Assembly: GCA_015179125.1 (NCBI GenBank)
Contig: WHVA01000004.1
Location: 186,001-250,000 of the forward strand
Reading direction: 5' to 3'
DNA from: Gautieria morchelliformis
Taxonomy: Eukaryota > Basidiomycota > Agaricomycetes > Gomphales > Gomphaceae
Length of the DNA stretch: 64,000 bases
A program made the translations under genes and the position numbers. Of the stretch, positions 1 through 51,731 are shown in pieces; the stretch's first letter is position 1; each line of letters begins with the position of its first letter. Below the pieces are notes generated by a model. It ran no database searches. It saw only the letters and a list, made by a program, of their open reading frames with translations, and was not told the origin of the DNA.

Positions 1-2296
1 TCTTTCTCTCTCCGTCTGGTAAGTCCCATCAGTCCGAATTTGTCTACCGCGAACTGGCAGTGGTGATTCCTGGCCCAGCTGTACGCCCCCCCCGGCCTGA
101 CCATTATGTCTCTCAGCTTATTGAACGCTTCTTCCAAATCTTTCCCTTCTGCTATCATGGTAGTGTCGTCAACGAATCCCACGCATCCCTCTCCTCTCGT
201 CTCTTGAGCGGTTTCGATCAGGTCCCCGTTGTAGAATTGGTAGGCGATTGCGGACAGGGGGCATCCCTGGTCCATTCCTCGTCCTATGGGTCTGGTTGCT
301 GATCTGTAGTCGTCTAGGCTGACGGAGGTGAGCCTGTTTCGGACTTTTCTATCTATCCAGTCCGTGTACTCGCGTGGTATCCCTCTCCTGCGCATGTTGT
401 GGGTCAATCTTTCTAGTACAATGCTGGGGAAGGCCCCCTTGATGTCCAGATATAGCACTCCCAGCACTCTCCCTCTCCTCCACGCGTCCTTCGCTCGTCC
501 TATCACGTAGTGTATGGCGTCCGTGGTCGTTCGTCCTGGTCTACAGCCGAAGTGGTTGTCGGGTAGCAGTCGCTGTTTCTCTGACATCATGACCAGATCC
601 TCTGCCACGCATGCCGATAGTATTTTGCCTATCGTATCGAGCAAGGCTATGGGCCGGTACGCCCCTGGGATCGTATAGTCAGCCTTCCCTGGTTTCCGTA
701 GCACCTTCGTGATGGAATCCCTCCACTCTGCCGGGTACACTTGTAAGTCGAAGGTGGCGCGGAAAAGGGGTCCTATATAGGGTAGGAGGATGTCAATGCA
801 CTGTTTTATCATCTCGTTTGGAATACCGTTTTCTCCTGGAGCTTTAAACCGATTGAGCCTGTTCACTGCTTTCCGTATTTGCTCGTCGGTTATCGGCTGG
901 TACTCAAACGCTGGGGGGGGGGGTATTCGTAGTCTGTCGGTATTCGTTCCGCTTCGGCCATTGGTCTGGGGAAGAATGTTTCAAATAGCATGTCAACTTT
1001 CTGTTCATTTGTTTCCGCTGCCTCTTTCGTGCCGTTCTCTTTTTGTATTTCTAGCGTTGGTGCCCTTGCTAGTCCCCCATCAGATGCGCCGGCCGAAGCG
1101 TATCTGTGTGCCGTCCAAACTGTCTTTTGGTCTATGTTCCCAAGGAATTCCCCCCAGTGCTCTCTCTTCGACTCTTCTATCGCCTCCGCATATCTATTTC
1201 TAGCGCTTCTGTATTCCTCGTGCGACGGGTGTGTTGGGTCCCTTCTTTTCACGTACGATCTTCTCCCCAGTCATCTCATCTCCGTTCTTTTTTGGGTGAG
1301 CTGTAGCGACCACCAACGCTTCACGTATGGTGATGGTTTGCTCTTGGGTACTACCTCCTCTGTAGTGTCCAATATCGCTGTTGTCATCGCTTCTAGGTGT
1401 AGGTAGAACTGTTGCTGGTTGCTCGGCATTGGGTCTCTAATGCTATCCTACAGCTTTGTTCCGAGCACCTTGTTGTACTCTTTCCAGTCCACCTGTCTAT
1501 AGTTGTGCTTGGGGCCCTGCTCACTACTTCCTACGGTGGCGTTTATTGTTGTGTCTATGGGGAAGTGATCGCTTTTCGGTGGTCGCTCTTCTGGTACTGT
1601 TGTGCATCTGATCAGTCTCTCTACCAGCGAAGGTGTTGCAAACACATTATCTGTTCGTGTATAATTTCCCGTGGCCATCGCCTTGAGCGTGGGGATTCCC
1701 TTTGGCAGCGTCATGTGTAGATCGTGCTCTGCTACGGCGTCCAGTAACACTTGCGCTTCGTCGAGATTAGCTCTGGTAAACAGATGCGAGTTACGTAGCT
1801 CGTCCCATATCGGGTGGTGCCTGTTGAAGTCCCCTACCCAGATCATCCCTTCCGCCTCGCGTTCTCTCGTGTTTCCTTCCACTGCTTGCTCTTGTATGCA
1901 TTTCCGTACCGCCCTTATGCTGTCAGATTGTGCACAGTCCACATATATGTTAAAGATCATGACGTCACCCGTGTTTGTTTTGATTTTCACTGCCGTGACG
2001 TCCGGCGATCCCACATCTACTGCCCCCCATGCGTTCGTCGCTATTTTCTTGCTTATCAGAACCATCAATCTTGTTCGCGCGCCCCTGTCGTCATAGTGGG
2101 TTTTCGGGTATACTGTGTACCAGTTGTGCGTGGCTCTGGAGTTCCCGAGAAAGTCAATATATGGTTCCTGAATTGCGATGATGTCGTATCGATCCGGTGT
2201 GCACTTAGCTAGTAAATCCGCCGTCGCCGTGAGTGATTTGTTTAGGTTTTGTTGTCTGATTCTCAATGTTTGGATGCGTTGGTTGTTTCTGTTCAT
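1..2296 (-). pseudogene. LINE ORF2: APE endonuclease and reverse transcriptase, broken, cut by window edge
   Basis: The N-terminal 283 residues (1448-2296) are an APE-type endonuclease with QQNLNKS, IQEPYIDFL, GDFNRHHPIWDE and SDHFPI motifs, which would nick target DNA. After an in-frame TAG (1448-1450) and a further TGA upstream of 1252, the linker and reverse transcriptase follow: FKAPGENGIPNEM, YLDIKGAFPSI (about 421-464), RGMDQGCPLSA and the catalytic GFVDDTTMI (about 151-180). A run of 11 G at about 903-913 shifts the frame by one inside a Pro run; a run of 12 would restore it, so a sequencing or slippage error is possible. The ATG overlaps the ORF1 stop (ATGA). The thumb, cysteine-rich and RNase H regions lie beyond the left edge. 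Confidence 0.9.
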
Positions 2297-4068
2297 CTTT
2301 GGGGCGGGTCGTTGTCGTTATCATCTCTCTGTGTTGTCTGTTCTTTCTCGCGGTTGGTTCTGATGCCGTAGTCGTCCAGCCGGCTCTGTCTGCCCTCTCC
2401 CTGCCCCTGTTCTCTCTCCTGCCAGCCCTGATCCATGTGGCCGACTCGCGGATTTGCCCCTCGGCCTCTTCCCCTTGCGCTCCCTCTACTCTCCATTCTT
2501 CCCCTCTGTCTCTGGTTGTACGTTTCCGTCTGCCCTAATTCGTTTGCTCTGTCCTCTGTGAGTCTCGCCAAACGTGCTTCCGCCTCTACCGCCCTCCATC
2601 GCCTATCTTCTTGTTCTCTGATCTTCTTGAGCAGATCTCCCGCATCTACTGTGTCTTCCTCTTCCCCTTGTTGTTCCCATGTCCAGGGGTTTTCGTCCGG
2701 GAAAACCCTGTAGGTGTGTTCCGGGTCACTTTTTTCTGTCGCCGCGCACGCTGCTCTGAATACCGGGCAGGTCCTGTCCCACAATGCGTGGCCACTCGTG
2801 TCACAGTTCGCACAGTTGAACTTAGTTGGGTCGTGTTCCTCGCATTCTGCTGTCCTGTGTTCCCCGCCGCATGTCCCGCACCTGTCCCGGCTGTCGCATT
2901 CGGCCGCCATATGCCGAGCGTTATATTTCTGACATTTTAGGCATCTTCGTGGTTCCCTTTTCATTCTCCTGGCCCACGTCCTCTTTCCTGCTATGATAAG
3001 CCCGTCCCTTATGCTCTGGTTCGCTGACTCTGTGGTGGAGAATTTGGCGATGATATGGGCTGACTTTTGTCCCGTCGTTCTCCTGTGCGCCGGTTTTATC
3101 CAGCGAGTGGCTATCAGGGTGCCTGCGGGCAGCTTCGAGTCTCGTTCTATTTTCCGCATCTCTGCCATCGCATCTGGTGAGTGGCTCAGCGGGACGTATT
3201 CAACTATCACCGACAGCGCTCGGTCTTTTATGGTGGCTGATCCGCTAAACTTGCTTAGGAAGGTTCTTTTGTTGTTCTGGACCCATTTCGCTTCGTTCTC
3301 TGTCTCTAGGTCGAATACTATCCCGCCATTCGCTAGTTTTTTGGCCCCGATGAAGGTGATGTCTGTTCGTTCGTGGTCCTCCTCGAGATTGTTCATTGCC
3401 TTGTTCGCCTTTGCTACTAGCTCCTTCTCTGTCAGCTTATGTAGGGTGTCTTGTTCTCCTTGTGGGTCTGCATCTATCAGTATCTGTCTAGCTTTTGCTT
3501 TTGCTTTTGCTAGGTTATTCAGATGCGACAACGGTACGTTACCTCTGAGCGCGGCTGCGTATGTGTTTCATCTGGTCCCGTTTTCTCCCCCCTGTGTTCC
3601 TAATTGCCTCATGCTGTTTAGGTGTTCGATAACGTTGCCGGCCCCCTCCGTCGCCGTTTTGGCGTTCTCTGCTGCGTCTCTCGCGTCATCCGCCGCCCTT
3701 TCTACCCTGGTGAGGGTTTGCTCCAGGCTCCTCTCGACATGTCTCATGACCGCTGCCCCCACCGTTTTTGCCGCCTCCTCCATCATCAGCACTGCTACCG
3801 CTCTGACTCCTTCTTGTAGTGTCTTGCCGTTAACGTTGTGCGCTAGGGAGAGTAGGGCGTAGCTGAGCTGTTCCATTGATAGGGGGTCCTCTTTCGCGTA
3901 GTATCCATGTTTGTCGAGGTACTGCCGCGCTTGTTCCCTCGTCCGTACTGACGTATTTGGCTCTAGTAACAGCTCGGCCCTAGTTTTGTTGTTCGCCTGC
4001 TGCGTGGTGCTAGCTCTCGTGCGACCTTGTGACGTGGCAGGCGTTTGGGGTTCGACGCTCGGAGGCAT
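2293..4068 (-). pseudogene. LINE ORF1 (gag-like, three zinc knuckles), one in-frame stop
   Basis: ORF1 proteins of this clade bind element RNA in the ribonucleoprotein particle. The N-terminal part (3568-4068, starting MPPSVEPQTP) is Ala/Glu-rich and probably helical. A single in-frame TGA at 3568-3570 separates it from the remainder, which continues in the same frame to 2293. The second part has three zinc-knuckle-like clusters around residues CLKCQKYNARHMAAEC, CGTCGGEHRTAEC and CANCDTSGHALWDRTC, then an Arg/Gln/Gly-rich basic tail. Copy 2 is open at the position of the stop, so it is a nonsense mutation and not an intron. The last codon overlaps the ORF2 start by four bases, suggesting termination-reinitiation. 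Confidence 0.88.
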
Positions 4069-4212
4069 CGTTTTGGTCGCTTCTTCTTTTGAGGAAGCTG
4101 GATGCTATCGCCGACTTTGGTCAGCGATAGGCTGGGAGGTGTTTGGGTGGCCGTGTGGCTATGAAGTGGGTTTTTTGGTTATTGGATGTGGTGGTAGGCG
4201 TGAGAAAGCTCC

Positions 4213-4790
4213 ATCCCCTGCTCTGCTATGGCGTCCAGCAGTATTTGCCCCTCGTCGAGATTGGCTCTGGTGAATAGGTGCGAATTGCGTAGTTCGTCCC
4301 ATAGTGGGTGGTGCCTATTGAAATCACCTAGCCATAGCATTTCTTCCGTCTCCCTTCCCTGTGTGGCTTCTTCTGCTGCTTTGTCCTGTATGTGTTTTCA
4401 CACGGCCCTTATGCTGTCTGACTGTGCAACGTCTGCGTATATGTTATAGATTGCTATTTTACCCACGCTTGTCTTGATGCTTATTGCCGTGACGTCCGGA
4501 GATCCTACCTCCATCGCCCCCCATGCACTCGTCGCGATCTTTTTGTTTATCAGTATCATCGACCTCGTCCTTGCCCCTCCGTTCTGGAAGTGCGTCCTCG
4601 GATATACTGTGTACCAGCTATGCGTGGCTCTGGAGTTTCCCAAAAAGTCAATATATGGTTCTTGAATCGCAAGGATATCGTAGTGATCAGCCGTGCACTT
4701 AGCTAGCATTTCCGCTGTGGCGGTGAGTGACTTGTTCACGTTTTGTTGTCTGATTCTCAAATTTTGGATCTGTTGTTCAGCTCTATTCAT
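4213..4790 (-). pseudogene. LINE copy 2 ORF2 N-terminal fragment (endonuclease only)
   Basis: Starts MNRAEQQIQNLRIRQQNVNK at 4790, overlapping the ORF1 stop. It keeps the endonuclease motifs IQEPYIDFLGNSRATH and, after an in-frame TGA at 4398-4400, GDFNRHHPLWDEL. The corresponding codon in copy 1 is an Arg codon, so this is a nonsense change. The frame ends where copy 1 begins. No reverse transcriptase domain remains, so it cannot be functional. Protein similarity to the copy 1 endonuclease is obvious by eye along its whole length. Confidence 0.85.
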
Positions 4791-6555
4791 TGTGGGATCA
4801 GTGCATTGTTGTTGTCCTGCTGCTGTCCTGTTTGCATCTGTTTGCGGTGCGTTCCAATCCCGTAGTCGTCTAGCCTGCTCTGCCGTCCTTCCCCTTGCCC
4901 TCTCTCCTGCCATCCTTGGTCCATGTGCCCTATTCTTGGGTTCGTCCCTCGCCCTTTACCCCTTCCGTGCCCTTGGCTTTCCATTCGTCCTCTGTGTGTC
5001 TGGTAGTTTGGTTCCGTTTGTTGTTCTTCGCCTCCTCTGTCCATTATCTGTCTTCCTGTGCGAGCCTCCGCTTCAGCTGCGCGCCATCTCCTCTCCTCCT
5101 GTTCCCTGACCTGTTTTAGCAGGTCCCCTGCATCCACTGCTCTCTCCGCCTCCCCTTGTTGCTCCCAGGTCCAAGGATTTTCGTCCGGGAAAAATCGGTA
5201 CGTGTGCTCCAGATCGCTTTTCTCCGCCGCTTTGCACGCCGCTCTGAAGACCGGGCATGTTCTGTCCCATGATGCGTGACCTGTCGTGTTGCAGTTTATG
5301 CATCTGAACTTGCTTGGGTCATTCTCCTCACATTCTGCTGTTCTGTGTTCTGCTCCGCATGTGCCGCATTTGTCTCGGCTCTTGCACTCTGCCGCCAGGT
5401 GCCGCGCGTTGTATTTCTGACATTTTAAACACCTTCGTGGTTCCCTTTTCATTCTCCTAGCCCATGTTCTTTTCCCTGCTATTATTAACCCGTCCCTTAT
5501 GCACTGGTTCGCCGACTCTGTGGTAGTCATCCTTGCGATGATGTGGGCGGTCTGCTGTCCTGCTGTCCTTCTGTGTGGGGGTTTTATCCAGCGGGTGGAC
5601 ATTAGGGTGCCGGTGGGTAACTTCGAGTCTCGTTCTATCTTCCTCATCTCCGCCATCGCATCTGGCGAATGGCTCAGAGGTACGTATTCTACTATCACCG
5701 ATAGTGCTCGATCTTTTATGGTGGCCGATCCACTGAACTTGCTCAGAAAGGTTCGTCTGTTGTCTTGGACCCATTTCGCTGCGTTCTCCGTTTCTATATT
5801 GAAGGCTATTCCTCCGTTAGCCAATTTCTTGGCTCCTATGAAAGCGATGTCGGTGTGTTCGTGGTCTTCTTCTAGGTTGTTGATCGCCTCGTTTGCTTTG
5901 GCCACTAGTTCCTGTTCTGTCAATCTGGTGAGCATGTCTTGCTCCCCTTGTGGGTCTGCGTCTATCAATATTTGTCTGGCCTTTGCTTTCGCCCTCGCCA
6001 AATTATTTAGGTGTGATAGCGGTACATTACCTCTGAGTGCGGCCGCGTACGTTGTGCCTCTCATTCCGGTCTCTCCCTCTAGTTCTCTCTGCTGGCTCAT
6101 GCTATTGATATGCTCGATGACGTTTCCGGCCCCTTCCGTTGCCGCTTTTGCATTCTCTGTGGCTTCCTTTGCGTCGTCTGCTGCCCTTTCGAACCTGTAT
6201 AGGTCTGCTCTAGGTTCTTCTCAACATGCCTCATCACCGCCGCTCCCACCGTTCTCGCTGCCTCTTCCATCATTAGAACTGCCACTGCCCTTACTCCTTC
6301 TTGTAGAGTCTTGCCACTGACGTTGTGCGCTAGGGACAGTAGCGCGTAGCTGAGGTGTTCCGTTGACAACGGGTCTTCCTTTGCATAGTACCCGTGTTTG
6401 TCTAGGTATTGTCTCGCTTGTTCTTTTGTGCGCACTGACATGTTGGGTTCTAGCAGTAGCTCAGCTCAGGTCTTGTTGGTGACTTGCTGTGTGGTGCTCG
6501 CTCTCGTTCGGCCTTGTGACGTGGCCGGCGCTTGGGGTTCGATGCTTTGGGGCAT
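4787..6555 (-). pseudogene. LINE copy 2 ORF1 (gag-like), stop plus frameshift
   Basis: Homologue of the copy 1 ORF1. The N-terminus is read from an ATG at 6555; an in-frame TGA lies at 6466-6468, where copy 1 encodes Arg (NKTRAELLLEPN). A frameshift near 6195-6200 separates the helical N-terminal region (6097-6441) from the long downstream frame (4787-6100). That frame holds SHLNNLARAKAKARQ, the three zinc knuckles (CLKCQKYNARHLAAEC, CGTCGAEHRTAEC, CINCNTTGHASWDRTC) and the basic Gln/Arg-rich tail. The ORF1/ORF2 ATGA overlap is conserved. Confidence 0.87.
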
Positions 6556-50384: not shown

Positions 50385-50790
50385 GATATAAGAAAAACTA
50401 GAATGCAGACGAGGGACTAAGTTTTGCGTAGGGATACGGGGTTGGGGTAGCAGGCCGCAGGCGTATATATAAGATTCTGGCTATGGGTGCTGCCAGGTCA
50501 ACAGATATTCACAGCCGCCTATATCAGTACCGAAGCATGGCACAATCTGCCACGGCGGATGGGAATGATAGAAGAACATCACATGTAAAAGGATTAATAC
50601 AACGTAGAAGCAGCGGATAAGTATAGTTAGCTGCTCCGGATAGTAATTGAGGCCTGCCAGCAATTCGTTATTACATCCGATTTTCCTGGGCAGGATGATC
50701 TCCAAAATCCATTTAACACACGTCGTGTGAGCACAATTAGCACTCATTGACGACTCATAGTGAAGTGTCAGCATAACGGCATATGAAAAC
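50385..50790. promoter_or_regulatory. Shared upstream region (U6), left part
   Basis: Homologous to 37576-37960. It is interrupted at 50790 by the TRIM-like element and resumes at 51702. Confidence 0.6.
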
Positions 50791-50916
50791 TGTTGGAATA
50801 CGAGCGACGTCAACATGACGTCATGTTGACGTCATACGGTTTATAGTTTTGTTCGCGTTGTACACTAGCTCTTCACGTAGTTGGAACCTGCTATCATCTC
50901 ACTTGATTCTCTAACA
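50791..50916. repeat. Left LTR of the TRIM-like element
   Basis: 126 bp. It contains a perfect 28-bp palindrome at 50806-50833 centred on ATGACGTCAT, with more GACGTCA motifs on each side. Confidence 0.9.
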
Positions 50917-50966
50917 CAACTGCGTACACCCCTTGCCTGTCGAGGCCGAAGTCGACACTCGAAAAT

Positions 50967-51410
50967 CGCGCCTACCGAAAGCGCGTCGCGCCTAACGAAA
51001 GCTCACTCATCGAAAGACACACCTATCGAAAGCGTGCACTGTTGTTGAGCCTACCGAAAGCTCAATTGTCGAAAGTCACGCCTACCGAAAGCGTGTACCA
51101 TTCTTGAGCCTACCGAAAGCTCAAGTTTCGTCGAAGGACACGCCTATTGAAAGCGTGTTAAACCGACCCGGAAGTCGCACCTACCGAAAGTGCGCCACGC
51201 CTACCGAAAGCGTGTACCATTCTCAAGCCTACCAAAAGCTCAAGTTTCGTCGAAAGCCACGCCTATTGAAAGCGTGCTAACCCTCGGAAGTCGCACCTAC
51301 CGAAAGTGCGCCACGCCTAACGAAAGCGTGCCGGACCATTGATTGTAATTGTGCCTACCAAAAGCACATCGATTGCCGACCTAACGAAAGCCACACCTAA
51401 CGAAAGTGTG
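50967..51410. repeat. Array of about 16 hairpins with constant loop and varying stems
   Basis: Repeated motif stem-CTACCGAAA-stem. Perfect stems: 50967-50985 (CGCGC/GCGCG), 51045-51065 (TTGAGC/GCTCAA), 51077-51095 (CACGC/GCGTG), 51103-51125 (CTTGAGC/GCTCAAG), 51138-51158 (ACACGC/GCGTGT), 51176-51194 (CGCAC/GTGCG), 51196-51214, 51258-51276, 51292-51310, 51312-51330, 51350-51368 (TGTGC/GCACA) and 51392-51410 (CACAC/GTGTG). Imperfect ones lie near 50987, 51018, 51222 and 51378. Loop variants are CTATTGAAA, CTAACGAAA and CTACCAAAA. A longer repeat of about 117 bp covers 51107-51340. A run of C follows at about 51410-51422. Confidence 0.9.
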
Positions 51411-51570
51411 CCCCCCCCCCCCTTCTGTTCATTCGCCTTTACTCTCTTGTCGTTGTCTCTTTGCCCGAAGCGTGGCAGGGCCACTTTGCAGAGGCTATAG
51501 AAGGAGATGATGAAGATTTTGCACTCTGATTTTCAGGAGGTGCTTGGATTGGACGCCGCTCGAGGAGGTG

Positions 51571-51696
51571 TGTTGGAATACGAGCGACGTCAACATGACG
51601 TCATGTTGACGTCATACGGTTTATAGTTTTGTTCGCGTTGTACACTAGCTCTTCACGTAGTTGGAACCTGCTATCATCTCACTTGATTCTCTAACA
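51571..51696. repeat. Right LTR of the TRIM-like element
   Basis: Identical to 50791-50916, including the palindrome at 51586-51613. Confidence 0.9.
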
Positions 51697-51731
51697 AAAA
51701 CACTGCGATAAAGGTCATTGATGTGAATTAA

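Follow-up and report, generated by a model that had tools for sequence, protein, structure and literature searches.

The stretch of Gautieria morchelliformis DNA analysed here, referred to as the window (64,000 nt, positions 186,001 to 250,000 of contig WHVA01000004.1), contains a complete short LTR element of 906 bp (50791–51696). Within its interior lies an array of 16 loops of the form CTANN[GA]AAA, 12 of them, by count, closed by a full 5 bp stem (50967–51410, + strand). In relatives that carry gag, the array occupies the leader between the putative primer binding site (PBS) and the gag ATG. The chances are judged about even that the array is a multivalent packaging signal in the leader RNA, which would be read by Gag through the loop and would have been amplified in gag-less parasites.

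Structure of the element in the window

The element is a TRIM, as a first-pass annotation made from the sequence had proposed. Its 126 bp LTRs (5′ LTR 50791–50916, TGTTGGAA...CTCTAACA; 3′ LTR 51571–51696; both on the + strand) are direct repeats with TG..CA ends and 0 differences over 126 positions, and AAAAC can be read directly on both sides as the target-site duplication (50786–50790 and 51697–51701, no strand assigned). The 9 nt after the 5′ LTR, CAACTGCGT (50917–50925, +), are a putative PBS of the self-priming type with one mismatch to the element's own LTR. The complementary LTR 9-mer, ACGTAGTTG (50875–50883, +; one G-U), pairs with them in the predicted fold and is the probable start of R. 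A purine-rich tract, GAGGAGGTG (51562–51570, +; read directly), adjoins the 3′ LTR and is present in relatives too.

No ORF of at least 150 aa overlaps 50791–51696, and the interior gave no gag match (tblastn, E 1e-3). At its 3′ side, 51466–51575 (+) resembles the end of gag and what follows it in a gag element of the same genome (C715; 73 % identity over 112 columns). Based on this similarity, the element is read as a TRIM that has lost gag but still carries what is left of a gag element's 3′ end. In three relatives (C153, C304, and C715), the LTRs are 100 % identical in their best local alignment, which together with the identical LTRs of the window element indicates recent mobility. Each LTR also includes a perfect 28 bp palindrome, GACGTCAACATGACGTCATGTTGACGTC (50806–50833 and 51586–51613), with TGACGTCA-like sites, possibly a promoter element.

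There were no Rfam matches at the gathering cut-off and no tRNA genes in the whole window. For the element and its surroundings, the single Rfam match, to a microRNA, was judged to be due to chance (E 0.81). Identity as a retrozyme was rejected based on the absence of a hammerhead ribozyme by Rfam (window at the gathering cut-off, and element). A 5S rRNA-like sequence is the feature of Cassandra TRIMs; no such Rfam match was present in the window or the element, and this identity was likewise rejected. Elsewhere in the window, 1448–6100 on the minus strand contains endonuclease-like and CCHC-bearing ORFs, apparently in two copies, which presumably resemble LINE proteins.

The hairpin array

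Counting of the loop word supports the approximately 16 hairpins with a near-fixed CTA-NN-GAAA loop that had been annotated: CTANN[GA]AAA occurs 23 times on the + strand of the window, 16 of these in the array, and seven times on the − strand. All of the 16 are on the + strand. The stems of hairpins 1 (50967–50985, CGCGC/GCGCG), 4 and 6 (51046–51064 and 51105–51123, both TGAGC/GCTCA), 5, 7, 9, 11, and 13 (51077–51095, 51139–51157, 51196–51214, 51258–51276, and 51312–51330, all CACGC/GCGTG), 8 and 12 (51176–51194 and 51292–51310, both CGCAC/GTGCG), 14 (51350–51368, TGTGC/GCACA), and 16 (51392–51410, CACAC/GTGTG) have five Watson–Crick pairs, and the stem classes listed in the first-pass annotation are thus present. 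There is no contiguous 5 bp stem in the remaining four: hairpin 2 (50987–51005, CGCGC/GCTCA) has two contiguous pairs, hairpin 3 (51018–51036, CACAC/GCGTG) has one A-C mismatch beside the closing pair, hairpin 10 (51224–51242, CAAGC/GCTCA) has three contiguous pairs, and in loop 15 (51376–51394) the closing pair alone is contiguous.

The 12 perfect stems that had been reported were confirmed against shuffled sequence. In 50960–51420 there are 12 hairpins with five Watson–Crick pairs and a 9 nt loop, whereas 500 dinucleotide shuffles gave 0.38 on average and three at most. With any other loop length between 5 and 13, the same interval yields zero to three hairpins. A previously noted duplication of roughly 117 bp is real, with internal repeats of 88 nt at an offset of 119 nt and of 46 nt at an offset of 116 nt. 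Successive loop starts are separated by 20, 31, 28, 31, 28, 34, 37, 20, 28, 34, 34, 20, 38, 26, and 16 nt. These spacings are not multiples of three, and a coding explanation of the array was therefore rejected.

Relatives in the genome

Searches of the genome (approximately 122 Mb, 1113 contigs) gave at least 46 matches to the array, at least 44 to the LTR, and at least 55 to the interior, which were merged into 45 stretches. These include four LTR families: A (TGTTGGAA), B (TGTTGATA), C (TGTTGATG), and D (TGTTGGAG). The word CCTACCGAAAG is present 171 times in the genome, compared with 50 for the reversed control word.

For 26 elements, the LTR pair could be placed by hand. In all 26, the first strict loop is within about 115 nt of the end of the 5′ LTR, and where the gag ORF is intact, the array is directly upstream of its ATG. 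A gag match of at least 100 residues is present in 19 of the 26, several with intact ORFs, although in three of these 19 no more than about 100 residues of gag remain. The gag-less elements have 7–13 hairpins each (n=7) and the gag-bearing elements 4–6 (n=19; Mann–Whitney p 9e-5), a contrast that, like the shuffle counts, overstates independence due to the relatedness of the copies. The larger arrays could be a by-product of tandem duplication.

Comparisons also show that the window element is similar to different families over its length. Positions 50817–51124 are 92–93 % like gag-bearing family A (C482 and C14), whereas 51108–51573 are 93 % like gag-less family D (C745), and the two matches overlap within hairpin 6. 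The element appears from these matches to be a mosaic of subfamilies A and D, joined inside a hairpin. Since LTRs are renewed in each round, the simplest origin of this mosaic would be template switching between two RNAs in one particle, which fits a packaging signal common to A and D.

Gag of the relatives

Elements of about 1.2–1.35 kb have an ORF directly behind the array, which in several is intact at about 250 aa. The encoded protein matches PF14223 (E 6e-33) and zf-CCHC, the latter a CCHC knuckle. The family profile aligns with the Drosophila Copia virus-like particle protein (8vvw) over positions 4–246 of 255 (E 1e-33), and a public homologue has a confident all-helical model (mean pLDDT 89). 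Based on these matches, the Gag of the gag-bearing relatives is copia-type; no Gag is encoded by the window element. The CTANN[GA]AAA loop is common to two gag families that are about 60 % identical.

Among the Gag matches listed (150 scored of 2196 and of 1935), the ones that reach 43 % identity occupy frames no longer than 356 aa, those in frames of at least 1000 aa have 28–32 % identity, and none is a full-length relative with a close Gag. The CTANN[GA]AAA word is absent from five copia leaders of long frames (L084–L088) in the stretch read. LTR searches for families A and B gave same-strand pairs about 0.6–2.6 kb apart, and no pairs at the 4–6 kb spacing of a full element, among the best 40 of 59 and of 116 matches. 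Taken at the level of sequence, the hairpin-bearing relatives are probably a lineage of gag-only (TR-GAG-like) elements with no pol.

Public databases include 97 homologous proteins, of which two carry a species name, Hypsizygus marmoreus in one case and Phanerochaete sordida in the other; there were no relatives of this Gag in viral contigs or in bacterial and archaeal genomes. Many of the closest homologues (P0001–P0009) are on contigs of about 1.2–1.4 kb, which is the size of a whole gag-only element or transcript. In the gag-only proteins of the lineage (P0001–P0097; L101, L102, L063, and L013), the C-terminus is commonly acidic and its last residue aromatic (FAF, AAF, VAF, SLF, or GAW); among the 60 public homologues that have a knuckle, the last residue is F or W in 47. 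The tail might serve to dock a helper, or it might be left over from the gag–pol junction.

Other gag families and their leaders

More distant gag families have different leaders. Gag identity is 49–50 % for family E and 43–48 % for family F (to 50 % for E and F together), for F over the first 134 residues only. The E and F leaders that were read show no CTANN[GA]AAA array. In four of the five from family E (L074–L077) there are two copies of GTAACCYGCCACTGGGGCCGAAGCCAG, potentially able to pair as a hairpin; the fifth (L073) is different in its upstream part. Three copies of ACACYGGAA are present in the family F leaders (L078–L081), and six F-related leaders have 6, 6, 4, 2, 6, and 6 copies; by eye, folds of two F-family leaders (L080 and L092) have no consistent pattern of this motif in hairpins. 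Twelve further AACACAAACGGAT sites comprise one CTANN[GA]AAA array (L097), six F-like leaders (L090, L092, L094, L096, L098, and L100), a degraded F gag element (L099), and four with no leader of either the CTANN[GA]AAA or the F kind (L089, L091, L093, and L095). As a parallel to the hairpin array, the ACACYGGAA repeats are suggestive only.

Possible self-priming

Complementarity between the 9 nt that follow the 5′ LTR and a 9-mer within the LTR of the same element was scored for 23 elements, comprising the window element and 22 others whose 5′ LTR end was placed by hand. It is perfect in 11 of the 23 and has at most one mismatch in 21. The PBS-like 9-mer varies between families (CAACTGCGT, CAAACGGAT, and CAACCGCAC, with CAAACGCAT in family E) and its partner in the LTR changes along with it. 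A smaller test began with 13 elements, of which L084 could not be scored because its LTR was not located; of the remaining 12, five are exact and two are half-tRNA-type elements. The sequence GGTTATGGGCCCCGC, which we take to resemble a half-tRNA initiator site, follows the LTR in a gag-only element of family G (L070) and in a full-length copia element (L087). The complementarity suggests Tf1-like self-priming, with the start of R probably at the LTR 9-mer (of the ACGTAGTTG/ATCCGTTTG type). In the window element the whole fold that includes this pairing has a z of −1.30 and is only suggestive.

Covariation of the stems

The first-pass annotation had claimed that the stems covary around a constant loop. 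Across the genome this was investigated at 271 sites, these being CT[AG]NN[GA][AG]AA loops at most 120 nt from a strict loop in the 45 merged stretches and two further loci (L082 and L083). The sites represent 134 distinct 19-mers with ten fully Watson–Crick stem classes. A full 5 bp stem, with G-U allowed, is present at 182 of the 271, whereas re-dealing the 3′ arms 1000 times gave 75 such stems on average and 94 at most. The stem ends sharply, with Watson–Crick pairs at 206 of 271 sites for pair 5 and 49 of 271 for pair 6.

For the 134 distinct hairpins, a set that mixes different hairpins of an array with equivalent ones, 82.5 % of cells are paired (71.0 % shuffled), 123 cells have two-sided changes (58.9 shuffled), and the covariation score is 0.468 (0.269 shuffled), with none of 500 shuffles as high in each case. 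Neither the number of pairs with two-sided change (4 compared with 4.0) nor the number of pair types (13 compared with 11.4; 68 of 500 shuffles) is remarkable. With a slide of +2 columns, 68.9 % of cells still pair over the three remaining pairs, because the stems alternate.

Equivalent hairpins were compared in a leader alignment of 27 hand-picked elements from families B, C, and D; five of the sequences had been shortened so that, of the first hairpin, the second copy alone remains. Four hairpins were used; a fifth between them was omitted, as it is not alignable across all families. Here 94.2 % of cells are paired (92.8 % shuffled) and two-sided changes are present in 20 cells (11.6 shuffled; 0 of 500), while two-sided change in six of 20 pairs (4.4 shuffled; 54 of 500) and 15 pair types (13.4 shuffled; 60 of 500) are unremarkable. 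Two pairs, T-A in some families and C-G in others, account for 16 of the 20 two-sided cells, so the main matched changes represent few independent events. The spacers between the hairpins are also conserved in parts of this alignment. The claim of covariation therefore stands for a near-fixed loop across many elements and, to a lesser extent, at equivalent hairpins.

Two kinds of observation had been named in advance as speaking against selected stems, and these are partly borne out. One was change in a single arm without compensation, which is common: in stem pairs 2–5 of the 271 sites there are 81 A-C mismatches and 58 G-U wobbles, and the full stem is kept at 182 sites. The other was variation no greater than repeat duplication would give. 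Much of the variety within the window is indeed due to duplication and to recombination between A and D, but the covariation across elements exceeds that of shuffled sets, and with the changes at equivalent hairpins this means that plain duplication of one hairpin is not the whole story.

Strand and form of the array

The G-U wobbles are no commoner than the A-C mismatches, and selection on a sense-strand RNA is therefore not visible in the copies. By eye, many of the stem changes resemble CpG decay in dead copies, which would hit both strands alike. The comparison of folds with shuffled sequence that had been proposed in the first-pass annotation gave a divided result. The array does fold beyond shuffles, but as RNA the antisense strand (z −5.90) exceeds the sense strand (z −2.46). 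The likely cause is that on the antisense strand the ends of the loop can form two additional pairs, a U-G and a U-A. For DNA, z is −4.58 for the sense and −3.65 for the antisense strand. The consensus obtained for the leader alignment with RNAalifold is weak (covariation term −0.08 kcal/mol) and retains no more than hairpin 1 and four pairs of the last hairpin. The sense strand is argued here from position, not from covariation.

Proposed mechanism and alternatives

The proposed unit is a 5 bp stem presenting a near-fixed 9 nt loop (C-CTANCGAAA-G), in which the stem would need only to pair, so that its sequence drifts, and the loop would be the recognized part. The likely reader is the Gag encoded directly downstream of the array in the related gag-only elements; the presence of the same leader in these strengthens the idea, raised in the first-pass annotation, that the loop is bound by a Gag. 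Sense RNAs with several units, once transcribed, would be captured into Gag particles and would there self-prime reverse transcription from the start of R, with another element presumably supplying polymerase and integrase. TRIMs like that of the window, having lost gag but kept and multiplied the signal, would compete for the Gag of their relatives. A wider version of this is considered less likely than not, namely a gag-only copia lineage with bar-code-like packaging, in which a Gag-specific loop is repeated, parasites multiply the hairpin, Gag families differ in leader motif, and the polymerase is borrowed.

Gag need not be the reader. A fixed loop on free stems would suit any loop-reading protein, and the array fills the 5′ untranslated region of the gag mRNA, between the PBS and the ATG, so it may instead be a site for a host RNA-binding protein or a control on translation or nuclear export, inherited by the gag-less copies. 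This is considered improbable, as the gag-less elements have no gag to control and yet have more hairpins, and as the different leader motifs of the distant gag families fit a Gag-specific reader better than a general host factor. Nor need the functional form be a sense RNA. The stronger antisense RNA fold, the DNA folds of both strands, and the excess of sense A-C mismatches, which are G-U on the antisense strand, would suit a role as DNA, either single-stranded or cruciform, or as the antisense strand; the hairpins might for instance form in the minus-strand cDNA while reverse transcription proceeds, or in antisense transcripts. Without pair 5, however, the two kinds of mismatch are near balance (55 and 48), as neutral decay of dead copies gives; in most family B copies the first loop base of hairpin 2 is G, breaking the extra antisense pair; and placement upstream of gag is the leader position of a sense RNA. 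A DNA or antisense form is accordingly given a low probability.

A similarly low probability is given to the array having no present function, as a leader repeat shaped by tandem duplication, recombination, and decay, with the pairing left from an old hairpin and the stem classes being old paralogues. The duplications in the array are clear, single-arm changes are common, two-sided change at equivalent hairpins is limited to six of 20 pairs and largely to two of them, and the spacers are partly conserved as well. Set against these are the single loop type common to ten fully Watson–Crick stem classes, the sharp confinement of the stem to five pairs, the matched TA/CG changes at equivalent hairpins of different families, and the 12 of 16 stems kept intact in a recently inserted element.

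Comparison with known systems

To our knowledge, how non-autonomous LTR elements get their RNA into the particles of others is poorly understood. If the array is a packaging signal, it is a small and countable one, separable into a near-fixed loop and a free stem. Within one genome there are elements with gag that could act as donors, copies that lack gag and have more units, and distant gag families whose leaders have different motifs, which makes the proposal directly testable. TRIMs, TR-GAG elements, and viral packaging stem-loops with a shared loop are known kinds; no such hairpin array in a TRIM or gag-only element is described in the literature covered, which was partial and is weak evidence of absence.

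The window element is like other TRIMs in its short LTRs, 5 bp target duplication, PBS-like and purine-rich sites, length below 1 kb, and lack of detected coding capacity. As in Tf1, a Ty3/gypsy element, the putative PBS could pair with the part of the LTR at which the RNA would begin; the differences are that the relatives' Gag is copia-type and that the complementary stretch is 9 nt. TR-GAG elements consist of LTRs enclosing a single gag ORF, with no pol. The gag-bearing relatives share this arrangement of LTRs and a single gag ORF with the class named in plants (PMC6696364), but are in a fungal host and have a copia-type Gag and a leader hairpin array, and the window element itself is without gag. 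In some bivalve TRIMs a single inverted repeat could fold into a hairpin, and the available portion of the report on them mentions no fixed-loop array (PMC6934838), whereas the TRIM described here has one.

The fungal copia elements of the GalEa group likewise have a hairpin just after the 5′ LTR. They have no ordinary tRNA PBS but a Conserved Hairpin Site (CHS) directly after the 5′ LTR, which is one hairpin formed from two conserved 9 bp sequences; in 85 % of families the palindromic CHSeq1 that follows the LTR reads CTGATCAGT or CTAATTAGT (PMC5445492). Identity with the CHS was rejected, since the window element has CAACTGCGTACACC after its LTR and not CHSeq1. There are many hairpins with a near-fixed loop and variable stems here, compared with the one CHS hairpin, and complementarity between the putative PBS and the LTR is present here, whereas the GalEa authors state that a Tf1-like LTR sequence complementary to the CHS was never detected (PMC5445492).

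A further likeness is with small RNA viruses such as satellite tobacco necrosis virus, for which dispersed stem-loop packaging signals are backed by binding or assembly data. Multiple short stem-loops with a shared loop motif are common to both, with reading by a shell protein inferred here. In the virus these belong to a viral genome, whereas here they are clustered in the leader of a retroelement and Gag would be the putative binder. If the proposal is true, the many-signals idea of virus assembly would extend to retrotransposons, and a satellite-virus-like, many-signal packaging scheme would be present inside a genome.
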